NCBI RefSeq assembly: GCF_964340395.1
Contig: NC_135565.1
Location: forward strand, 17,811,709 to 17,875,708
DNA: 64,000 bases
Source: Glandiceps talaboti
Lineage: Eukaryota > Hemichordata > Enteropneusta > Spengelidae
Direction: 5' to 3'
The position numbers and the translations under genes were made by a program. The notes beneath the pieces were generated by a model. It ran no database searches. It saw only the letters and a list, made by a program, of their open reading frames with translations, and was not told the origin of the DNA. The stretch's first letter is position 1. Every line of letters begins with the position of its first letter. Shown one piece after another: positions 2,127 to 64,000 of the stretch.

Positions 2127-10776
<8,650 letters not shown>

Positions 10777-13389: not shown

Positions 13390-13522
13390 GTAAGTAAATT
13401 GTCACCGTAAAAGCTGTATCAAGGACAATAGTTACCCCGGTCTATTTCAGAACTAAGTTTGTGTCATTTCGTAGTGGTTCCCAGCTTCGGGTGCAATTTA
13501 ATTCATTGTTTGCCAACAGCGG

Positions 13523-14263
13523 ATGGAAACGACTTCTGAGAGCACAACAATGGAAGATCCTGCGACAATACAACACACACAAGGAACCGAAGGCCTGTCA
13601 GAGGGTACAGAGGGAATTGATATGGCCGTTATTGAAGGTGCTGAGCATGGCGACGACGGTATCGCCAACGATTATAATTTACCCGGTGCTCTGTACGTAC
13701 AAGCAAACCCCGAAGGTGGTAATACAGGAGACGACACCGTCGCGAGTGTTGGCGATGGCGATGACACAGAGAAGGGTCGCAGTTCACCGTTATCCGAACA
13801 AGATCGTTTCCTACCCATTGCGAACGTCAACAGAATAATGAAAAAATCCATACCTAAATCCGGTAAGATTGCCAAAGATGCTAAAGAATGTGTTCAAGAG
13901 TGTGTCTCTGAGTTCATTAGCTTCATCACGAGCGAAGCCAGCGAGAGATGCCACCAGGAAAAGAGAAAGACGATAAACGGCGAAGACATACTTTTTGCAA
14001 TGTCCACGCTTGGTTTTGATAATTACGTGGAACCACTGAAAACGTACCTGCAGAAATACAGACAGTCAATGAAAGGGGAGAAAACCATGGCTGGTACAGC
14101 CAGGTCTGATGGTTTACCCGAAGAACTCGAGGAAGACCAATTCTCAGCACACACACTGACAGCATCCAATTTGATTGGCGATGCAAATGTCAACCAGCAA
14201 GGAATCATTTATGCGACTACTTATGCAGGTGGACAGATCGGCCAACCTCTCCAGTTCTCTTAG
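13523..14263 (+). CDS. NFYB: Nuclear transcription factor Y subunit beta (NF-YB)
   Basis: Single uninterrupted frame of 246 residues. Residues 94-183 are the histone-fold domain, almost identical to vertebrate [63 protein letters not shown]. The C-terminus ends in IGQPLQFS, close to the family's IQFS ending. The acidic N-terminal 90 residues are lineage-specific. NF-YB forms an H2A/H2B-like dimer with NF-YC and, with NF-YA, binds CCAAT boxes in the nucleus. The start is the first ATG after the candidate 5' UTR intron. No intron interrupts the coding region, unlike the vertebrate gene. The upstream CpG-rich promoter argues against a dead retrocopy. Confidence 0.97.
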
Positions 14264-15969: not shown

Positions 15970-16130
15970 ACAGTGACAGGGGAACGCCATGCCAGGAAAT
16001 AAAGGCATTTTCATAATTATGAATTCTGGAGTCATTTCATGATTTTACATCACCTGCAATTATTTGTGATTGGAGAGAAATATCAAGTTGATCTTGTGCC
16101 TTTTTAGGGTATCTTTACTGTGGGCCACAT
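15970..16130. mobile_element. One-ended MITE copy related to the 56.1-kb element
   Basis: Shares GCCA..CCAGGAAATA, GCATTTTCAT, TCTGGAG.TCATT, CATGATTTTAC and AAGTTGATCTTGTGCCTTT in order with the left end of the element at 56150; the opposite end is not seen. Confidence 0.7.
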
Positions 16131-43326: not shown

Positions 43327-46300
43327 TCATCTTCTTCGGCGTGCTATCTGCATCACATACTCTAGAGCTCTTGTTGTTTTCTTGCTTTTTCTTTGACTCC
43401 TCCTGACAAGCATGGATGATGATGACTGCATAGGTTGGCTTGGGGACTGAATGGCATATGATACTGTGTGCTCAGATAGGTCGTGGCTGTGCATGCCAAA
43501 CTGGTCATCAGACTGGGTTTGGTCTTGCAAGGAGGCTTCCTCAGTTACTTGGAATGTGTCATGAAAAGACAGTGAGTCATTGGTGTGGAGAGTACTGTCT
43601 TCAAAACTCGGTATTGTTGATATTTCCATGGCTGATGGTAGGACATGTAGTGTTTCCGGTGTAGAATGCATATTTAAAAGTTCTGGTGAAAAGAGACAAA
43701 ATGAATAAATGTGGATTAATATTGTACAATTCTGAGGCTAACTAGACATTTGTTACGTTATGACAAACTCAATGTATTCTGATGCAAATAGGACTTTGCT
43801 GCTTAGCATTTTCTGTTTACAAACCCTACTTGTAGATTCCATGCAACTGGTCTTGAACTCATTATAATATGTGTATATTGGTGTGTTTTTTGCACTGTCT
43901 TGACTGAATATCTAAAGTATCGATTAGAAGGTACACAGCAAATTTAACAATTTCAGTAGATAGAAGTTGACTTCTACCATCTGTATGTATGAACATATGG
44001 TTTTCTATGTACCCATGTATTTCTGAATTTATTCTTAGTGTCTTTCAATAACAATTACACGCTTACTGTATGTTAGCCTTTGACAAGTCACCAATATATA
44101 TTTTCATGGTTAATATCAGAATTTTATGTTGTTACTTACCAAGATCATTTTGATTCAGTGTGGTATAATTGTAAACTATCTGCTGGAGGGCAGGTATTTC
44201 AGGATGGAATTGTATATCTTCTGGTGTAGCAGCTAGAGAAATAAACAAGAATTTGAACAGTTAACAAGGCAGATATTGTATTGCTTTAATATACAATAAA
44301 TTATCCATGCTTTAACATTGTATGTTTATCTTCAGGGAAACGTGCCTTCGAAATTAAATATTCAACCTTTGTCCAAATATCCCTGAAGAAACTTTATCCT
44401 ATTCATATTCAAAATCTGGGAGTTGTCTTGTACATTTTTCAAATACATATCAAAATTACCTAACTTTTTTACTAATATATATATTTCAGATGGTTATTCA
44501 TCAAAGTTATTTTATATTATAGATGTAAATGTTCATCTGTGTTTTGGCATTTTAATTTGTAACAATAATGTGTACATCAGCTTGCTATCCAAACAGATGT
44601 TTGTAAGTTGTAGCATACAGTCATCCTACAAAGGTGCAGAGTGATTATGGTCATAATCGCATTATGGTGTAAAAGTAATATGTACACATAACTGCAATTA
44701 CAGTCTACTTTCAATTAAAATGATTTACAGAACACCCTATTTTAACTGTCCTGGTTGTGAAATTTAACTCAGAGGGACTAGGTAAAAGTGTTCATGATGG
44801 AATAAAAAAAAAATTGTGACATGTGTACCCATAATAAGACACAGACAACTTGCCATTTCCAAAAAAAAAGTAACTTAAAAAAATCCAAGAACAAGTTGGA
44901 TGTACATGAAATATCAAAGAAATTTAAAAAAAAAGGGGGGGGGGGGAATAGTATATGAAACAAGTGGGTAGTTTTTGACCCAACACCACATATACATGAT
45001 TACCCACAAATCTGATAATAAATATGATAATAGAAGTTGACTTACCATTAGTAAATGTGGGGTTCTCTTCAGATAACTGAGGTTGCTCTGCTGTATTGTC
45101 TCCTGTGTGAAAAAAAAAAGAAAGATTCATTAATGTTTCAAATATTTTCTAGTATCACTTACTCTTGGGGGTGAAGACTGTTAACTCTTTCACCACTCAT
45201 GGCCTCATGAGATTGTTCTTCCTCCGAGCCCCTCACTGACAATAATTTGAATAAAGTGAGACTGAGTGTTATGTAATCAAATAGTTATAAAAATACTTAG
45301 AGTTACCCATTTTTGACAAGTGAGGTATCATTTGATTGGAAAATAAATTATCTTCATAATACTTGCTAATACATACATTCAAATGTCACAAACCAAGCCG
45401 AAATATGGAGTAATAAAATATTAATAAAACAAACATGCCTTGTTTATTTACTGACACATACAGCTCAGCATAAGTAGGACAATGAACAGAAAAAATGTGC
45501 ACTACTACCACATTTTAGGTAATTGATATTGAATCACCCCTCGCCCTCAATCTGATTAAAATCAGATGTGGTGAAAGCGGCTAGATGTCCTTATTTACCT
45601 CTATTCATCATGTTGTGACGTTTGTTTTGTTCGGAGTGATCGCGTGGGAAGGCGGCGATAAAATTTCAACTAATCAAAACAAGTACTGAGTATACTACTC
45701 AATGATAAAGGCACAGCATAAACTCGCTGAGATGAAAGTCGCCTTATATGAATACTATATCAACTCTAGTTTTGAAAACAGGTTATGACGTTGCACCTAC
45801 CTGTCAAATCTTCTCGTTGGTAGTACACGTAACAAGCCTTTGCAGCTCTCCTCAAGAGTTCTGTCCAGCCGTCTACCTCTTTCGGACGTTTGCATGGGTT
45901 GCAGTAGGGCACATCTACAGGCCACCACATGGGAGCTTTGTCTTGATTACCCCATAACGCCTGGTTTCGACCGACGCTAGTCTTCACGATGGTTGGAATC
46001 AGATGTCTGAGTTCGGCAAACGTAAGCTTGCTCAGGCAGCCTTGTGGTGAGTCACGGATGTCTGGTAGGTCTGGGATTGGTACGGACGTTGAGTTGTCTG
46101 TGGCTCCGCCGACATCTGAACTATCTGTCTCATCAGTGGCTGTACGTTGATACCGAGTGGATGTAACGGGTGGTATAACCATATCTGGAAGTTTTTCTTG
46201 AAGTGACTGCTGCATGCAATCAGTACCGTGGACGATAAACTTGCGTTTCGCTAACACTTTGTCGTAAAACGATACGACCACTCCAACTTCTAAGTTAGTC

Positions 46301-46452
46301 TTTTTTACGAACATATCGATCTGCTTCTTTAAAAGAAGCCAACTTTCAGCCTGCTTCTTCAAGAGGAATGACATTTTGCTGGTATACAGTCTTCTCGATG
46401 TGTCGACTACGAATTTTATATTGATAATGATGTGGTCGAAAGAAGTTTCCAT
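43327..46452 (-). CDS. NRF1-like DNA-binding domain protein
   Basis: Four exons in transcript order: 45801-46452, 45046-45102, 44140-44232, 43327-43682; phases agree, 385 residues. Residues 142-217 match the DNA-binding/dimerisation region of nuclear respiratory factor 1 (human NRF1, fly erect wing): LTFAELRHLIPTIVKTSVGR, ALWGNQDKAPMWWPVDVPY, GWTELLRRAAKACY and QREDL, against human MTQAQLRAFIPEMLKYSTGR, KPIWWPEDIPW, SWTQALRTIVKNCY, GREDLL. The N-terminal 100 residues follow NRF1 only loosely, and the KKRKRP nuclear signal of NRF1 is missing. The C-terminus ends in a basic patch (RRSQRKSKKTTRA...QIARRRR). Shorter and more diverged than orthologous NRF1 (503 residues in human), so a paralogue or transposon-associated derivative, perhaps a nuclear DNA-binding protein. 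Confidence 0.7.
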
Positions 46453-46620
46453 GGCTTTTAAAGTCGAAGAACAGTGTGAGAAAGTGTTAATGTCGCCTTT
46501 GCTAAACTGATCGATCCGCCGGGCAGCAAGTGGCGGATCGCCGCGTAAAGTCGTCGGTGACGTAAAGAGCGGTACCAGTTCACACTTTTACTGCTTTATG
46601 ATATGTCATTTGTCAAGGAT
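46453..46620 (-). promoter_or_regulatory. Promoter region of the NRF1-like gene
   Basis: CpG-rich stretch immediately upstream of the ATG. Contains a perfect 9-bp inverted repeat CGATCCGCC/GGCGGATCG (46512-46520, 46532-46540) and a CRE-like TGACGTAA (46558-46565). Confidence 0.4.
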
Positions 46621-50752: not shown

Positions 50753-52329
50753 AAACTAGGTGGGATCGGGTAACAGGAACCAAATAATTTTGTTTTTAGG
50801 TCTCCAAGTAAAAAAGGGTACTGAATTCACAGACAATTTAGGAGACAACATAAATTAGCATAAAGTATCACTCAAATTTCTATGGATATATTTGGGTATT
50901 GTGGCCCACCAATAACACAATACATAAACACAAAAAGAACTGCATTTCAGGTTTTGTATGTTGTTTAACACTCAAGTTTATACTTTCAGTCAACATGAAA
51001 CATCAATTTAATCAAACAATTAGCTATCTTAGCCTGAATTATTTCATTTAGCAGTCATATTTGAAATGTTCACTTCACCATTGAAATTTATCAGACTCAA
51101 AAATTTTAATTTCACATTTGTCACACACAAATTCAGCCCTATTGTCGCCAAATACACTACAAGAATCACAGAAAATGTTTGTCTTATACTTCCAAATTAA
51201 TTTACAGGCATTGAAGTTTGTGTACATTTGCATATTTTATGACTAATTAGCATTAAAGTATGACTCAAATTGCTATAATCTCAGATTCAATATGGCCGCT
51301 ATATTTAAATTTCGGCCAGTTACGAGGACAGGCAAACAAGCAGACGACAATTTCTCATCGGAGGCACGACAGTGCATAATAATAGCTTGCACAGCGGCTC
51401 AATGACTAGTACGCATGCGCGTCGTATATACTATGCGAAAGCAACGCTTCAAAACGTATACGCATGCGCGAACATGTATTCTCAGTTCGATTTTCGCGCA
51501 AAAATTCAACATGTTCTCTAATTTCCAGGGTAAATTCTCTCATATCTCCTTGCATTAAAATTACGGGGATTTTTTATCTGAAAGTTTCGCCGTAAATAAT
51601 GCATATACCGAAGACTTTCCGAGTCAGAAAAGTTTGACCTCCTGAGGAGAATTCATTGACCTTACGTATAAATAAATATGACCCCAAAAGACTCACTAAT
51701 TTGAATATGAATACCAAAATTGTATCAAATTTTTAACCCCTACCACAATTTTGAACGGCTGTGCGTTAGATCGCGAAAAACCTCCGTTACATCGGATTCC
51801 AACTCTAATTTAACATACTTTTTGTGACAAAATATCCGTCCATGTGACAACACTGAACTTCTCTTTCGAAAGATGGCTTGACATGGGGTTTCAATACGTA
51901 GAACACCTGTAAAGTTAACTGTGCACTGGGGTAACTTGTAAGCTGTATCCGGATAGCTATAGCCGGCCCTAGTGTAGTGTTGTACTACCATAGATACAAT
52001 GTATGCTTTTTATCTTGGTCTAATATATTAGTATGGGAGACTTGTCTCAATCTGCATAACAATAAAGGTATTCCCCGTCAACGTCATTTCACTTCGGCCT
52101 AGATTTCTGACCGGAGGTATTGATAATGTCAACAAATAAAAAAAAATAAAAGTTACACGAGTATCATTTACGAATGTCATTCTTTTTGACGTCAGTTTAT
52201 TTTATTTGGCCCCTCCCACCTGTCAAACACAGACGACGACAAATCACCCGCCAAACTTCAAATTGTAAGTATCGTCTGCCAGGTGCCATTCTGTACTGTC
52301 AACAGGTGGTTGTCACTGTTAGCATAAAA
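50753..52329 (+). promoter_or_regulatory. Upstream region of the 1167-residue gene
   Basis: No exon supported apart from an in-frame upstream ATG at 52174. Two ACGCATGCGC motifs (51411-51420, 51460-51469) resemble the NRF1 consensus YGCGCAYGCGCR in a locally CpG-rich patch about 0.9 kb before the ATG; GACGTCA occurs at about 52189. Confidence 0.4.
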
Positions 52330-55300
52330 ATGACGTTTGTTTGCGCCCATGCCCCCCGAACCAGAACTTCTGATGGTAGATTATGTGGTGGAAGTTTGCT
52401 GGAAGTGTCAAGCGGGATTATCGCTCGAAATGCAAACGTCACTTGTGGAGAATATCTCTGCAAAAACCATTACATGGCAGCAGTCCGTCTGAGATTTTGT
52501 TCAAGCCCCAAAACACTAGGATTCCATTCACGTAGTTATGTACAACTACCATTGAAGTATCACTCAGTTTTTGATGAACTTGGTCAAAACAACCATAGCT
52601 ATCGACGTGGTTCATACATTTGTACTAATTGTTACAAAAAAATTGAAGAAATAATTGGACCAAAAACTTCTCAGAAGAAAAAGTCAGATTCAAAGGTAAG
52701 TTGAAGTAAACTTCAATGTGAATTTGATACAGTTGGTCTCTGACGACATTTTCCCAAAATTGACTGAATGAACAATTAGACATATAATTATGATCTTTAT
52801 TGATGCAATCATGAAATGAAATAATACAATGTGGTAAATCTATTTTATAACTCATTGTGTAAAAGTTGTTATACTTTACTTTGTTCAATTTGTTGGTATA
52901 TATGTACTGGTAAAAAGGGTTTGACCTGCAAGTGTAGTTGTTGTTGCATGTCCCTTTATATCTGAAGAATATATTTACTAGAGTAATGAACAACAGCACT
53001 AATGAAATGACCTGTGGTTATATTAGTCATATTATTCAAAAACTGAATCTCGCTTCCATCTCACCAAACTAGACATATTTCTGCCAACCTTGTCATTTTC
53101 TCATTATTTACATTTTTTTTATATGTTGGTTGTAAATCAGTGCTCTCACCATTTCATTTGCCACAAAGCATATCAAACTACAGTCAACTGAAACATGTTG
53201 CCCATTTTTTTTTCAATATGTATTCTTACAACAAAGAGGTTATGTATGTTGCAAAACAATCCTAGAATATGCATTACTGGTTGCAGTATGTCATTGCAGA
53301 TGACTGGTTGATTTGTTGCAAATCCAGACTGTTATTGAAATGATTATTCAAGACTTTTTCCTATACATTTGCATACTGAACTCCTGAGTTTTTAACAATG
53401 TATGTATGTATCAATATATACATGTTGGTCAACATTGTTTGCTAGCATATTGGTTTTGGCAGTATATCAAACTGTTTTAAAATACTTAAGTAATATAATG
53501 TTTGAGATTGTGGCACTGAAGTTTCTCAATGGACGAGTACAGTGTACTTTTAATAAAAGTTTGTGTTTGCTAGCATAATAAAATTAAGTTAAGAAAAACA
53601 ACACAACAAAAACATGTAACTGACTAGATTGTCCTCAATGTTTATTAAAACACACAGAGTACTTCTCTTGATTTAACAGCATTGATATGCATGGTCATTT
53701 AACTATGTACATAGATCAGTCTTTGCTAACGGTAATTTAATGGTGTAGAAAAACACAAATCAGTGAACAGATCTGTATATCTGCATATTCTTGTTATTGT
53801 ACGAAATACATATTTCTGGTAGTTTCTGTGATTGACCACATTTAATTTATGTCCAAAGTCAATATTATGAATGCAAGGAATAAATCTCTTCACATCTTAG
53901 TTGTTCCTGACTTCTATGTAGAATTACATGTAGGAGTTCCAGACATTTTTCAGCTGATGATTGATTATGGCTGTGCCACTAGTATTGTAATATCACTGAA
54001 CATCCAGCAATTACCTGTAAATATAAATGCAGATATATATCCATGTAAGTTTTTGGAAATATCTTTTTTAGGAACACAAGCATATGGACAAGTCAGCACA
54101 AGGGGGTGTTGAAATAACATTAGACTACTGGAACAAAATACAGAGAATGATGTCTCAATGTCCTGATATTGGTAAGCTATTTTTTTACCTCTTAGGCTAA
54201 CTACATGTATCTATTATGGGATATGTGGAATAATATCAATGTTCAAGCTGGTGAGAGAGAGTTTCTCTTGGAATATAAAAAATACAAGTAAAACTTCTTC
54301 ATAATCTACCTCTGCTCTGACAGTCTTTTTTCTTTTCAGAACCACCTACATGTTTTCCACAACTGCTGGCAACTTTTCAGAAAGAATTATTCCGACACCA
54401 AAAAAACAATCCCGAGGAGAAACTTTACAGTCCAAACCAGATGAAACAATTCTGTGAGGAAAAGTGTCCTGGCTTGTTTGATCTTATGGTATCTGCACTT
54501 TCCAGAGATGATCCAAGATTATCTTATGATAGGTCAGATGTCATAGAACAAAAAGCAACAGCGGCACTCCACATTCTAGCATATATGAGGTAAATTACGT
54601 GCTACAATTACGTCTTCTCTTGGATGTTCTTAAGTCTGAACTGTATGTGGTACATGTATATCTCTTTGGTGTTAGATAACTTATTCATACTGTCATCTTC
54701 CATTGTTGAAGTTGATAGAAAATTAAGCATTATGTAACTGTTAATATCTCTCCAGCTACTATTTTCCAGTAATTCACAGGCTGAGTTTATACAGTATTTA
54801 CTTTTAGTAATGCATAATAATTTACATAAAACCATGGCAAAACTAATCAAGTATAGTGTTTACAACGATTCATGTAGCCATGATATGTGTCACTTTTCAA
54901 CAACCATCCAACTTATGTGTTGTGCATGTAATGACAGGGATTTCCTCAGATTTTGTTGATATGTACCAACAATTATGTCATCAAATCTTTCAAATATTAT
55001 ATCTAAATATCAGGATTGAGTAATGAACGAGTGTGTTTCACTTTGTAGGCAATAGTCATCATATGTGACACATTTCACTACAACTACAAGACCGGTCTAT
55101 ATATAAAGTAACTGAATAATTGTCCTCCTTCATGCAGATCACAGAAAACAAATCAACTACAGAAGGACTGTGGCCTGAATCTTATGCAACATGGTGTATC
55201 TTATGATAGTCTAATGGCTGGTCCAATACTAGGATTCAGTGCTGCACCAAACACTATAACGCTACACAGATCTAAAACAGCCAGAGATAATACTCCACTT

Positions 55301-58300
55301 GTTTCTTCTCTACTATTAAGAGCAAGAAAGGTAAAGTTCAATGTATATTTCATTCATTTGTAGACAGAAAGAAATAATACAAATATACTTTCATATTGTT
55401 ATCATTTTAACAGAATGATTTTAGCAGAACTTTAGCAATTCATGTGCAGTTACATTATTCTTCATCACATACTACACAATAACTTATGTTCAGCCTCACA
55501 TTTCTCATGGGTGGTGCAAATAAATGTGATCTCTAAATCAACAGACAAACCAATTACAAAAATAAAATAATTGTTACTATAGCCATGACTCCTTGTGAGT
55601 TTCGCTAATTCTCCTGAAAGGGATAAAGTTATTCTAGACCATGACAGAATCCATGACGCGAGTACCAGTGTGAAAGACTATTGTCAAAGTTGCACTTTTC
55701 ACTGGACTTATTTATAGTTGTGATAAACTCTGTTTTGATGTCAAAATTATTATCTTTCTTTACAGGAAAGACATCTAGTGATTCATCTACTTGATGATTT
55801 CACTAACATTCAACCAATAAGACAGGCAACAAATTTAACCACATTCAAGGTATCCAAAATGGCTTCCTCACTAGTAGACGTTCATACACAAATCCTTGCA
55901 ATAAAAAAAAGACAGACTCCACACAGAACAGTACCTGTTGAAACAGCAGAAGGCACACAAGACTGTGTTGGTGGTATTGGTATTGAAAACATACTTGAAA
56001 TCATGACCATGGGAATGACGGAATATTCTACTGTCTGCATCAACACATTGCCACAGTACATGAAACACCTTGATCCAGCAACCATTGAGCAATCACTCAA
56101 ACAGTTCAGGTAAATGCCCTTCTTTTACTACATAAAGTTCAGGTATTAAAGGGGAATGCCACTCCAGGAAATAGAGCCATTTTCATAAAGTGTTGGTTTT
56201 TATTCTGGAGAGTCATTACATGATTTTACTTCACCTACAATTACTTGCAATTTCAGAGAACAGCAAGTTGATCTTGTGCCTTTATATAGGGTAGTACTGT
56301 ATCTTTACTATGGGATATTGCATCATGGAAGTCTTCACAAATTGAGTATTCATAAGCTTGGAGTGTCTATACCCTTGAGTGTACAGAATCTCATTGCGCA
56401 ACTTGAATATATTATTTCTACTAACTCCCATGATGCAATGTTCTACAGCAAAGATACCCAAAAGGGCACAAGATCAACTTGATGTTCTTTTGAAATTCCA
56501 ACTAATTGTAAATGATGTTAAATCATGTAATGCCTCTCAAGAATTAGAACCAACACTTAATGAAAATGCCTCTATTTAGTCCTGGAGTGGCATTCTCCTT
56601 AAATGTGGAATAATATATCAGGTAACTATTGTTTTACAGCAGAGTAACAACGACATAGGTACACGTACCCTTATTAAGACATAGCTTTTTATATGTGTTA
56701 CTGATCCAAACTAGGTTTTCTTGTGAGTAATCTGTAAATATCACTACCCTGTTTGTTTACTCCAGCCTAATGTACACAATACGCGCATTCGAACAGCCCT
56801 GACTTTTGGCTTGTATTTGTAAGTGCTATGACAAGATTACTGTCATTATGTGTTGGATACTACAATATGTGTCAGCTGGAATTTAAACCTTGAACACTCA
56901 CAGCCTAGTATACTTACTTTCACAATGTACTTTTATGTTGGACTCAATGACAATGCGTGCAAAACTAACAATTAAATCCACTTCTATATCTATTAACCTC
57001 AGACTTTATCTTTATAAGTGTACTTAATATCTGTCCTCGTCTTTCAGGGTCTACCAACAAGAGGACCACTCAGAAAGAAGCACACTTCAAACAACATACC
57101 TCATCGACGAATTTCAACAAGACTTGCATTCCATGGAAGACTATCAGAAAGCATATGATCACATCTTTAATACATCGCAAGACTTCTTTTCATATGCTGA
57201 ACAGTTTGTAATTCCTGCTCCTGGTGATTGGCCGACATTTTATTTTGTAAAGAAACTTATTGCCCAAGACAAACTTAGTGATAGCATTTTACCAATACAG
57301 GGACCTTTCCATGTTTCCCTTAATCTTCATGACGACCATGTTAAACTTTATCATTTTTTTTACAGTGACTTGTATTCCTTTGTTTTTGGGGGAAAGCTCT
57401 CATGTAACCCCAAACCATTTCGAACATCTCTTGTTATCATGGCTGCTTTTACAGGTTGGCAGATTGTACGTGATTCCATCCTTCAACATTTTCTCAATTC
57501 CAAAGACCCAGAATACCTTTGCCTTAAACACATCTTTGACGAACAGTTACCTCTTCTGACCTTTCAATACACCTCTATTTTTCGTTCAGGAAATCACAAC
57601 TTATACCTTCAAATCATGCGCAGAATTTCCATTTTATTCATCATCTGGAGAAGACATCATTATGACAAATCCACTCTTTCTATGCTTTCAGACACTGACT
57701 TTTACATGACCACATTTCCTGATCTTTCTGAACTCTTTCAAACTTATTTTCCAGTCCTCACTGAGAAAAAGGTAGAAGTATGGCACTCCATTCTGCGTAG
57801 TCAAATCAAACCACACACATCACCACACACAATAACAAAAACAGCACACAGCATTGCATCAACACGACTGAACAACACATTTCACCAAAACTTCTTACAT
57901 GGCTATGGCAGAGGCAATTGGCATCATGACTACACTCTCATTGCAGGTAAGACAGCCGAGTATATTGTACAACTCTTTGGGAAGGTTGCACAGAACACTG
58001 GAAAATCTTCACTACTGGAATCAAAAACAAACATACTAAAATACCAACTACCAACATTCAAAACAGACATAACTAGTAAATGCTTACCCCTTGCTTTCAG
58101 TTTTGGAATCAACAATATACCAGCCATAGATAAAGTATGTGATTTCAAACCATGTAATAATCAGGGAGATACAATCAAAGTGCTTCCCTGTGGTCATAGT
58201 TGTCATGTGAATTGTTTACAATCATCAGAAGGCAAGTGTACTGTATGTCTTCCATTACTACTTGCCAAAGTAACAGAGCTTAGTAAAAGCTTTAATGAAG

Positions 58301-59298
58301 CCATTCTCACTCCAACACAACACAGGATAAGAAACCAATCCAAACAAAATGACAAAGATGTGGACACTGATGACACCACTGACATAAACACCACAAAAGA
58401 CAGTGAACACTACACATCACAAGCATTTAAAGACAACATGACTCACTACATACAACAATATCCACCAATACAACAGCCTACAAAAGACCACCAACATCAA
58501 AATACCCATCAACCACAGCAGAACAACAGACGATGCGCTCACTGTAGACAATATGGTCACACAAAAAAGAAACGAGGTGTCATCACATGTCCTCAATTAC
58601 TACAACAAACAAGACAGAAATCTTACATTCCACAACACCATGCACTCATTAACATACATCCCATTTCCATCATGTATACTGAAGGAGAGATAAAACTTTG
58701 GGCATTGCCAAAACACATATCTCAATCTACGATTGATGGCCGTGATGGAAGCAATGCCTGTTCACTTATTACAATAATATTTGGCAACACGTACTGGAAT
58801 AATTTAATCAATCATGTGTCTCTCCCACAACAGGTATTACCACCACAGTGGTTTGAGGCGACACTCACAACATTGAGAGAAGGCAACAGAGTTTATGAGT
58901 TGTATGTAAGTCAAGTTGGCAGAAATTTGTCAGTACATGAAGCAGTCAACATGTTGCCGTATATAAATGTATGTAACATAGGACCAGAAACACCTATTGA
59001 TATCATTGATACAGATAATGATTCACAGACACTTACACTAACTAATCTCATATCCCATCTCACCCCAAAATCAGCAGGCATTTTCATTTTTCAGGGGAAA
59101 TCCATCATATTCCTTTGTAACCTTGATTGTAGCCATATAATTATGTTTGACAGTCATATTCATGGAGATGTTGGTGCCCTTTTTCTTTCCTGCCCTAGGA
59201 GGGAAGAAATAATAGCCAGAATGTTACAATATTTTAATTCTATTGCAAATAGCACACAGTTTACACTTGGTTCTTTCACAGTATTGAGATATGCCTAG
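52330..59298 (+). CDS. Multidomain transposase-like protein with RING and C76-like deubiquitinase domains
   Basis: Six exons: 52330-52695, 54072-54171, 54340-54589, 55138-55330, 55766-56109, 57048-59298; all junctions are GT-AG and in phase, 1167 residues, no internal stop. Residues 1-122 are Cys-rich (LCGG, CGEYLC, ICTNC), a probable zinc-binding N-terminus. Residues 304-319 ERHLVIHLLDDFTNIQ, about 509-520 SLNLHDDHVKLY and 660-667 VEVWHSIL are candidate catalytic D, D and E positions of an RNase-H-like transposase core (inference). Residues 782-818 form a RING-H2 finger: C782, C787, C799, H801, H804, C807, C815, C818. Residues 914-932 are a CCHC-like knuckle (CAHCRQYGHTKKK...C). Residues 963-1167 contain GRDGSNACSLI (C989) and IIMFDSHIHGDVGA (D1119, H1121), the Cys...Asp-x-His triad of herpesvirus large-tegument deubiquitinases (peptidase family C76). 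An in-frame ATG at 52174 is an alternative start; 52330 was chosen for its A at -3 and proximity to the conserved cysteines. It could be an active transposon gene or a domesticated one. Confidence 0.75.
56146..56602. mobile_element. Foldback MITE with TTAA flanks in intron 5
   Basis: Left end AGGGGAATGCCACTCCAGGA and right end reverse complement GGAGAATGCCACTCCAGGAC, each next to TTAA (56146-56149, 56599-56602). The similarity continues inward through TAGAGSCATTTTCAT, AATT.CA..AAGTTGATCTTGTGCC and GGGTA.TCTTTRCT to the middle. No coding content. Related one-ended copy at 15970-16130. Confidence 0.85.
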
Positions 59299-61560
59299 AT
59301 ACATACATAGTTGTGTATACTGTCATCTGCGTAAACAGAAAATAATACAAATAGGTAATGCAATTGTAAGTATTTTACTGTAAAATTAAATACAATGTAG
59401 ATTTGGGTCAAGATAATTTTTTAATTTTACACACTCTCACAAAACAAAAGTATTAAAAAAGAAAATGGAATACAATTATCTAGACTTTGTAGTATTTTAA
59501 AGACACACTGGTACAATAAATGTACACGTATGTGTTGTAACCTCCAGTAGCTCCATGTAGCAGGTGAAAATTCACTGGATACTTTTTAGGCTCTTTATGT
59601 GAGCCTTGTAGGTTGTATTTTCATTCTTTTTTAATTAATTGTACCATGCATACCACACTCTCTGCTAGTGTGTGTTGAGTATAATAAAGATTGATTGATT
59701 AATTATAGGAACCAAGAATGATGGATGTAGATTCTCATTTACTTCCACGAGAACAAGAAGTTTACTACTCTTGACTTTTGAATGTAATGTAATGTAACTA
59801 ATCCTTAGAAACTATTTTGTTAGCTAAATGTGTAATGTAAACAAATCTATACTAATACTCAGTGTAGTTTATCTTAGGAAATATATTTTATGATAAGGAG
59901 GTAAAGTTTACCTGACTATCAAAGGACTTTTAACTCTTTCAATTATAATCAAAAGCTATAATGTAGCTTCAGTAAACACATTTTTGAAATTCACCTTTTG
60001 CTACTGATGTTACTAAATATTAAGAGAAAAAAAATATTGACAGTATAGTATTGTCCTTGCATTTATATTAGAGTATAGATTTTCAAATACAATGGCATTC
60101 ACATTTTGTATATCACACACTGTACTTCTCATGAGTAATTTATTCAAACATATAGTAACTTCCAGTGGAATTACTAAAGGTTACAAAGTAAGGACAAAAA
60201 TCAAATTATTTAAAACTAAATGAGTACATTTATGGAATTAAAGTATTGTATAATTGAGTATGTATAGTAGTACTAAAAGAACATTTGTAAATAAACTGAC
60301 TATGTAGATTAATTATTATATTGTATGATCATGTTTGTGTTTGTTCATAATTGTTTCCCAACTTGTGATTTTTTTGTAAACAATACCGTCCTGGTAGAAA
60401 GAGGATTAAAACATGGTATCAAATGTTATAAATATATTCCTTTAATGATTAATTCATATTGGTATTTTTGTGATAATAACAATCCCTGAATGGAACTGTT
60501 TACCCTTGAACATTAGGGAAGTATCATCCAGTTATTCAACATACTCATCTGCCATCACTAATATTAGTAATATGGTTGCTAGCAGGTTCATTGTTTACAT
60601 ATACGTGTGGTGGAGGAACGTACAGTGACAATGTGATAAACAGGTATGTAAGTCGTAACACTCATTACTATACGATGAGTGTCATTTACTTACCTGGTTA
60701 GGTGACGGTTATTCCCATTGCAAACACGCCGATGAATCGCATGGAAATGAGTCAATTTCTACGTACAAGTTACCTACGATATATCAATAATAACGCCATC
60801 GTGTTACAAATTCCATACTTGTCATGAGTACATCCATGATCCATTACGCGGTGAAGTTATACACGCTCTTCGATCATGTTTTCTCAAACGGGAACAGCAA
60901 AGGAAGTGTCCTGTTATATGTATGAAATCATTGTCCACAGGTCTACCTAAAACGTGTTTTAAATAAAGTGCGTATCTCCAGAGGAAGGCAGGGAGAACGT
61001 GAGCTCATGGCGTACATGTGCACCGACCATGCACGTCCATTTATTTTCATTTCCACATATTCTGACGCATGCGCATTGCGAAAAAAATGATAGAGGCAGT
61101 ACGCGCGTTGTCGAGTTTGCAGACATGAGAGTTGCCAGTAACGCATGTGACTGGTAAACAACGCCTGTGTCTGGTTTAATTCTGTGGGTTTAAAATGGGC
61201 CATATAATGAGTTTTGAATAAACACAGCTGTTGGAATGAACGATGTTTTGAAGAGAACCATGCAAGATTGTGTATACACAGACAGTTTTCTGAGCTTTCC
61301 TAGTGACTAGCATGAAGTTTAACAACAGACATTGATACTGGTAGTAGTACTGTATTCTCAGCTGTGTCTACAGTCAGTCAATCTTTACATGCATGGTAAA
61401 GCATACAAAAATAACATGCAGAAATAAAATGATTAAAATATATTCTTTTAACCAACTGATGGAACACTGTTTACATCGACTAGAAAGTTTCCAAGAGGAA
61501 GTCTATCATCTGAGGTCAAAATATGCAGAAACTGAATGAAAATTTGAATTATCTAATGAA
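59299..61560. other. 3' flank of the 1167-residue gene and intergenic DNA
   Basis: AATAAA at 59515-59520 and 59683-59688 are candidate poly(A) signals; the second is followed by GATTGATT, a LINE-like tail. An imperfect hairpin lies at 60641-60696. A CpG-rich patch at 61020-61180 contains a third ACGCATGCGC (61065-61074) and may be a promoter. No exon is supported. Confidence 0.5.
60641..60696. repeat. Imperfect hairpin CAGGTATGTAAGT...ACTTACCTG
   Basis: Arms of 22-25 bases (60641-60665, 60675-60696) around TACTATACG. Confidence 0.75.
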
Positions 61561-62709: not shown

Positions 62710-64000
62710 AACAAGCTCTTTCCAAACTGGTGGATTCTAAATCAACTCTTTCCTTGTTTTTGACCTTCCTTTACCAATCTTAGACTAAAGTACTAAAATT
62801 TATTACAAAAATGTTCGCAATTTTCGTTTTAAACATGTACAAATGTAACTACATTTTTGTATGAGGCCAGACACCAGAGTTATACCTAGCCTTACAAACT
62901 ATGCTCTATTCCAAATTCATTCATGCTACAACAACACTGTCACTGTTTCTCACCTACTTCTATCCATCTTAGTCTAAACTATTAAAATTTATTAGAAAAA
63001 TGTCAGCCATTTTGATTTTTAGCATGTAACTAGGAGACCAGACACCAGAGTTACCTAGCCTTACAAACTATACTCTTTTCCAAATTGATTCATGCTACAA
63101 TAACACTGTCACTGTTTTTCACCTATTTCTATCCATCTTAGACTAAACTACTAAAATTTATTAGAAAAATGTCCGCCATTTTGATTTTTAGCATGTAACT
63201 AGGAGACCAGACACCAGAGTTACCTAACCTTACAAACTATACTCCTTTCCAAATTGAATCATGCTACAATAACACTGTCACTGTTTTTCAACTATTTCTA
63301 TCCATCTTAGACTAAACTACTAAAATTTATTAGAAAAATGTCAGCCATTTTGATTTTTAGCATGTAACTAGGAGACCAGACACCAGAGTTACCTAACCTT
63401 ACAAACTATACTCCTTTCCAAATTCATTCATGCTACAATAACACTGTCACTGTTTTTCACCTATTTCTATCCATCTTAGACTAAACTACTAAAATTTATT
63501 AGAAAAATGTCAGCCATTTTGATTTTTAGCATGTAACTAGGAGACCAGACACCAGAGTTACCTAACCTTACAAACTATACTCCTTTCCAAATTGAATCAT
63601 GCTACAATAACACTGTCACTGTTTTTCAACTATTTCTATCCATCTTAGACTAAACTACTAAAATTTGTTAGAAAAATGTCAGCCATTTTGATTTTTAGCA
63701 TGTAACTAAGAGACCAGACACCAGAGTTACCTAGCCTTACAAACTATACTCTTTTCCAAATTCATTCATGCTACAATAACACTGTCACTGTTTTTCAAAT
63801 ATTTCTATCCATCTTAGACTAAACTACTAAAATTTGTTAGAAAAATGTCAGCCATTTTGATTTTTAGCATGTAACTAGGAGACCAGACACCAGAGTTACC
63901 TAGCCTTACAAACTATACTCCTTTCCAAATTGAATCATGCTACAATAACACTGTCACTGTTTTTCACGTATTTCTATCCATCTTAGACTAAACTACTAAA
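62710..64000. repeat. 169-bp satellite array running off the window
   Basis: TATCCATCTTAGACTAAACT starts at 62961, 63130, 63299, 63468, 63637, 63806 and 63975: exactly 169 bases each time. Units also share TGTCAGCCATTTTGATTTTT and GGAGACCAGACACCAGAGTT. The first unit (about 62710-62960) is diverged and longer. Identity between units is very high, with few substitutions. Confidence 0.97.

Follow-up and report, generated by a model that had tools for sequence, protein, structure and literature searches.

The window analysed here, a 64,000-nucleotide stretch of contig NC_135565.1 of the hemichordate Glandiceps talaboti, holds a copy of a recently active DNA transposon and, within it, one long gene that most likely encodes the transposase. 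Six exons joined across five GT-AG introns (window 52330-59298) give a coding sequence of 3504 nucleotides for 1167 residues with no internal stop, and an in-frame ATG at 52174 may add a 52-residue N-terminal extension. A search of the 590 Mb assembly (47 contigs) with the exon-6 protein returned at least 28 matching stretches, five of which are full length at 100% rounded identity and lie on four contigs. In all five near-identical copies (the window copy, C4, C20p, C20m and C1m) the coding sequence and every splice site are intact. These copies share a single block of about 9.6 kb, beyond which the sequences are unrelated, and pairs of copies are 98.94-99.74% identical. The alignment of the block contains 24 distinct indel runs, none of them within the coding sequence, and its variable columns amount to 36 of 3504 coding and 113 of 6344 other positions. 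In parallel, the ratio of nonsynonymous to synonymous substitution rates (dN/dS, NG86) lies between 0.11 and 0.38 across all 10 copy pairs. The indel-free coding sequence, the intact splice sites and the low dN/dS thus indicate that the gene model is sound and that the protein has been under past selection; the in-phase six-exon frame, first proposed in a sequence-only reading of this stretch, is therefore borne out by the splicing check and by all five copies.

The ends of the block are those of a DNA transposon. The left end reads AGCAACGCTTCA[AG]AACG, and C4, C20p and C20m terminate in its inverted partner, so that 17-base inverted ends (AGCAACGCTTC...) are present in these three complete copies, with one mismatch in C4. 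Target duplications of 9 bases (TATATATCG, ACACACACA and TAAACAAAC) bound all three both-ended copies, ACACACACA being weak evidence because it lies inside a CA repeat. The suggestion in the sequence-only reading that the gene could be mobile is thus upheld by five near-identical copies, three of which are complete with inverted ends and duplications.

Diverged relatives were recognised as well. C14a shows 59-62% identity, C15b and C7 show 30-35%, and all three carry stops or frame breaks. A second family, comprising C4b, C5 and C15a, has a core 41-42% identical to the window copy; its members are 96-99% identical to one another in the aligned pieces, which indicates that this family has spread recently too, and the protease region is broken in C5 and C15a. 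Inverted ends (ACAGTCTGGACATTCGTCACGCATGCGC) are present in C4b and C5, where 20 bases were computed and 28 read from the printed ends; the ends of this family contain the palindrome ACGCATGCGC about 20 bases inside and adjoin further end-like sequence. No relatives were found among viral contigs, genome contigs and phage collections, a result that says little about animals because these collections hold viruses and prokaryotes. One viral-contig pattern match (L001) was discarded, as tblastn shows no relationship. Similar unnamed proteins in other invertebrates are an unconfirmed lead.

RING zinc fingers are usually modules that attach ubiquitin. The eight ligands previously placed at residues 782-818 are all present in cross-brace order (C782, C787, C799, H801, H804, C807, C815 and C818), with a first pair of the form C-x4-C instead of C-x2-C that is kept in all five aligned rows. 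Six of the eight ligand columns are invariant over these rows, and C799 or C807 is replaced only in the broken C7 and C15b. Among 5000 shuffles of the protein, none matched the RING pattern with C-x2-4-C allowed. The single-sequence search gave RLIM at E 0.0028, and the 5-row profile matched solved RING ligases in the PDB, the best being synoviolin at E 5e-4; against Pfam, the window protein stays under the curated cut-off (zf_RING_Vps8, 23.7 bits vs 27.3). The zinc knuckle of the sequence-only reading held in part: the order C914-x2-C917-x3-GH922-x9-C932 is present and recurs as Cx2Cx3GHx9CP in the window copy, C14a, C15b and C7, but the last spacing is x9 in place of the usual x4. With x4-9 allowed, the pattern appeared in 1 of 5000 shuffles. 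A UCH_1 match (Pfam, E 0.0079, below cut-off) was dropped, since it covers the linker and the knuckle, which separate the RING from the protease domain.

The C-terminal region carries a Cys and Asp-x-His pattern together with an upstream Gln. Q977 and C989 are kept in 4/4 aligned rows, and D-x-H in all three rows that reach it and in a separate C14a piece. The bare pattern is not rare: shuffling the whole protein reproduced it in 938 of 5000 cases, and shuffling residues 950-1167 in 28 of 5000. The Cys-to-Asp spacing is 130 in the window protein vs 129 in the VTD of a zebrafish Helitron, DrT1, whose structure has C322, D451 and H453 at the corresponding places (PMC9741609; this and the other papers are cited from the sections available). 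On the recurring triad and this spacing, a viral-tegument-type (VTD) protease is plausible; of the viral-type deubiquitinase domain claimed earlier, the catalytic residues C989 and D1119-x-H1121 with Q977 recur, whereas profile similarity to known VTDs was not obtained. A kinesin match of the domain was dropped because it falls at a distance from the catalytic residues and disappears when the alignment is used. The same data could fit a transposon in which the D-x-H protease acts on another ubiquitin-like protein or on its own transposase and in which the RING has a structural or dimerisation role, so that ubiquitin is neither written nor erased. UFSP2 and ATG4 share the D-x-H order and act on other modifiers (PMC9741609), the C-x4-C first pair is unusual, and the best single Pfam matches of the RING are Vps8/Vps41-type, under the curated cut-off. 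The spacing close to that of the transposon VTD DrT1 and the profile nearest to RING ligases speak against it, and we consider this alternative rather unlikely.

The core between the N terminus and the RING contains acidic motifs that recur between copies and families. In particular, DD[FY] at the end of a hydrophobic strand occurs in the window copy, C4b, C5, C15a and C7; C14a and C15b, for which no early exons were identified, did not show it. The DW at 478-479 is kept in 4/4 rows, and TEKK[VI]E is present in the window copy, C14a and the second family and broken in C7 and C15b. The order D313/D314, D478 and E657 or E661 would fit a transposase of the RNase H type, and the 1167-residue protein is, by its position, most likely the transposase of the element. 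Thus, of the transposase-like core in the sequence-only reading, the recurring acid motifs stand, while a match to a known family and confirmation of an RNase H fold were not obtained. Should the long protein lack DNA-cutting activity, the element would have to be moved by an unseen second protein, in keeping with a core that matches no known transposase; this is improbable, given that no other stop-to-stop frame exceeds 130 amino acids within 51440-61080 and that the acid-bearing DD[FY], DW and TEKK[VI]E motifs recur between families.

A palindrome may link the ends of the transposon to its surroundings. The element's own ACGCATGCGC begins 20-22 bases inside each end, and CATGCG is present in the host flank of four of the five copies, separated from one end by about 20-22 bases: on the right in C4, C20p and C20m, and on the left in the window copy. 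The full CGCATGCG is present in three of these four. As background, the motif lies at 15-25 bases from 328 of 80125 points in 80.7 kb of surrounding sequence, and from 39 of 5101 CpG-rich points; the flank motif was derived from the element itself, and the distance was noticed first and tested afterwards. We read this as one palindrome that may be recognised in both ends and targets, on a sample of only five insertions. Elsewhere in the genome, the end pattern (at most 1 mismatch) occurs 28 times, vs once for a reversed control. Eight of the 28 belong to the five near-identical copies and the other 20 fall in 17 loci, all of which were read. Six of these loci (L050, L051, L060, L063, L064 and L065) are 51-base miniatures, in which two facing ends surround one shared palindrome; exact 9-base duplications bound two of them (L060 and L065), and the remaining four have none.

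Table. Features of the transposon copy and its gene in the window (window positions; a dot marks features given without strand).
Feature	Position	Strand	Remarks
Whole transposon copy	51440..61080	+	Block common to 5 copies with differing flanks; last 15 right-end bases missing
ACGCATGCGC in host flank	51411..51420	.	About 20 bases outside the left end; proposed target cue
Left terminal inverted repeat AGCAACGCTTCAAAACG	51440..51456	+	Inverted partner in C4 (one mismatch), C20p and C20m
Left subterminal ACGCATGCGC	51460..51469	.	Starts 20 bases inside the end
Exon 1	52330..52695	+	Residues 1-122; Cys/His-rich N terminus
Exon 2	54072..54171	+	
Exon 3	54340..54589	+	
Exon 4	55138..55330	+	
Exon 5	55766..56109	+	Hydrophobic-strand DDF motif; D313/D314 (55793-55798), candidate first catalytic acid
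TTAA-flanked inverted-repeat element, intron 5	56145..56604	.	In 5/5 copies; travels with the transposon
Exon 6	57048..59298	+	Residues 419-1167: core remainder with D478 (57226-57228) and E657/E661, then RING, knuckle and protease-like domain
RING-type zinc finger	58138..58248	+	Residues 782-818
Zinc-knuckle-like Cx2Cx3GHx9C	58534..58590	+	Residues 914-932
VTD-like cysteine protease domain	58672..59295	+	Q977 (58723-58725), C989 (58759-58761), D1119 (59149-59151), H1121 (59155-59157)
Right subterminal ACGCATGCGC	61065..61074	.	

By taking these features together, we favour, with moderate confidence, a recently active cut-and-paste transposon whose single six-exon gene would encode a transposase with a Cys/His-rich N terminus, RNase-H-like core acids, a RING, a knuckle and a VTD-like protease, combining palindrome-guided insertion with the adjustment of ubiquitin. 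In such a mechanism, the protein would first bind ACGCATGCGC about 20-22 bases inside each end. Targets with a like sequence would then be captured and insertion would occur about 20 bases away with 9 bases duplicated, the positions being those seen in four of the five copies. Ubiquitin or a related modifier, attached to the transposition complex or to host factors bound at it, might in turn be adjusted by the RING and the protease; in the simplest form, the complex would be shielded from degradation.

Several observations weigh against this interpretation. The core gave no profile or sequence match above chance to a transposase or any other family, including those of Pfam, and single-sequence AlphaFold models reached a predicted local distance difference test score of only 35.6 for the C-terminal domain and 49.6 for the RING. 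Searches of PDB and Pfam with the single sequence or the 4-row alignment returned no VTD entry, and C7, which lies outside that alignment, has retained the Cys and has no Gln at the position of Q977, its match ending before D-x-H. The window RING has Thr after the seventh ligand, where many active ligases have Pro. As to the ends, the window copy has neither a full right end nor a duplication, and the right end of C1m is about 3 bases short, again with no duplication. The targeting rule is affected as well: the palindrome is incomplete in the flank of C20m, and CATGCG is missing from the 120 bases on each side of C1m. Of the other 17 loci, which are older or miniature, two (L051 and L058) show the motif at a comparable distance outside; in L052 it lies at 40-42 bases, and 14 loci lack it within 45 bases.

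If both modules work, the transposon would be a self-contained genetic parasite equipped to attach as well as to remove ubiquitin, and the reason for the repeated presence of deubiquitinases in transposons and herpesviruses would become testable. A constant distance between insertion points and a sequence that the element also has in its own ends would, if true, be a simple and testable rule of target choice. Excision and targeting can be assayed, because the family was recently active, its ends are defined and 51-base miniatures exist.

The element also differs from each of the described systems that it resembles. Helitrons have a Rep/helicase protein, no inverted ends and no target duplication, whereas inverted ends and a 9-base duplication are present here and no helicase match was obtained. 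VTDs occur in Helitrons, and their transposon-borne spread has been proposed; VTDs fused to domains associated with transposons are mentioned for cnidarians (PMC9741609). The VTDs of Helentron-type Helitrons such as DrT1 share with the present protein a transposon-encoded Cys and Asp-x-His protease of nearly equal spacing, but they accompany a RepHel protein, while here the domain has no VTD profile match and belongs to an inverted-repeat transposon with a core of no known family (PMC9741609). In Agaricomycete (mushroom) VTD-RBR fusions, too, one polypeptide combines a VTD with a ubiquitin ligase, but the ligase there is of the RBR type and each fungal genome is described as having a single such protein, in contrast to a mobile element with a single RING (PMC9741609). 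RAG1-like transposases combine a ring zinc finger, which in RAG1 has ubiquitin-ligase (E3) activity, with a knuckle of the form Cx2Cx3GHx4C; their ring is N-terminal, no protease is described in the sections available, and the core here has no C-x2-C (PMC7204232). Mutator-like elements (MULEs) have a MULE transposase domain, in many cases accompanied by a SWIM finger. Among them, one Phytophthora element is listed as having a C3HC4 ring finger and the MUDR groups have 9 bp duplications, but the window protein shows neither a SWIM pattern nor a Pfam transposase match (PMC6446971). KDZ transposons (Zisupton, Kyakuja and Dileera) are eukaryotic DNA transposons with an extra enzyme, but their duplications are of 8 bases (Zisupton) and 7 bases (Kyakuja) vs 9 here, and the core here has no Pfam match (PMC12730594). 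In the CMCT group (CACTA/Mirage/Chapaev/Transib/Plavaka), the stretch from the second D to the last E contains C(2)C together with H(3-4)H (PMC12730594); this combination was not found between the corresponding acids of the window protein, whose positions are themselves inferred, and C-x2-C occurs in it only at 98, 815 and 914.

The Repbase superfamilies and the PSI-BLAST rule for defining them have been listed (PMC4455052). A transposase with a RING and a deubiquitinase was not found in the literature searched, a scope that leaves aside Repbase and most subscription papers. The earlier statement that no described family has this combination is thus kept for the combination as such and qualified for its parts, which are already published in Helitrons, mushrooms, RAG1-like and Mutator-like elements; the combination is less isolated than first thought. 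That the element stands for a new DNA transposon superfamily, with a transposase that would attach and remove ubiquitin and pick targets by ACGCATGCGC in host DNA, possibly at promoters, is a tentative possibility.

The CpG pattern bears on the history of the family. The transposon body is CpG-depleted in 5/5 copies, with an observed/expected ratio of 0.21-0.24, and this equal depletion indicates inheritance by the family. Along the window the ratio is mosaic, mostly depleted at about 14-33, 42-45 and 52.7-60.3 kb with near-normal stretches between. Body depletion and mosaic levels together suggest that the family had been methylated for a long time before its last spread. Reported targets of methylation are transposons in cnidarians and, for invertebrates more broadly, gene bodies (PMC8857917). 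A host or domesticated gene of transposon origin with its mobility lost, the other option of the sequence-only reading, which would account for a CpG-depleted body beside a CpG-rich start, as in methylated host gene bodies, and for the lack of inverted ends in the window alone, is highly improbable and is refuted for the family by the multi-copy genome search, with five copies on four contigs that are 98.9-99.7% identical, equally CpG-depleted and, in three cases, bounded by inverted ends and duplications. The inverted ends had been missed within the window because this copy lost its right end, and for the same reason the window copy itself may still be immobile. Two palindrome sites, which we take to be NRF1-like, were rejected as a promoter: one lies inside the left end of the element and the other in the adjoining host flank.

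Other features of the window lie outside the transposon. The hairpin-like TTAA element of intron 5 has a diverged partial copy at 15978-16121. An open frame with an Nrf1 DNA-binding domain (Pfam, E 3.5e-17) lies upstream of the transposon on the minus strand (45769-46587), a gene piece with an NF-YB-type histone fold (Pfam, E 3e-28) on the plus strand at 13502-14260, and open frames with WSC, CUB and Sushi domains, from one or more genes, on the plus strand at 5479-8962. Two tRNA-Ala (TGC)-like genes are present at 3651-3722 and 7250-7322, and a satellite array with a 169-base unit (6.7 copies at 96%) occupies 62863-64000 and reaches the end of the window.

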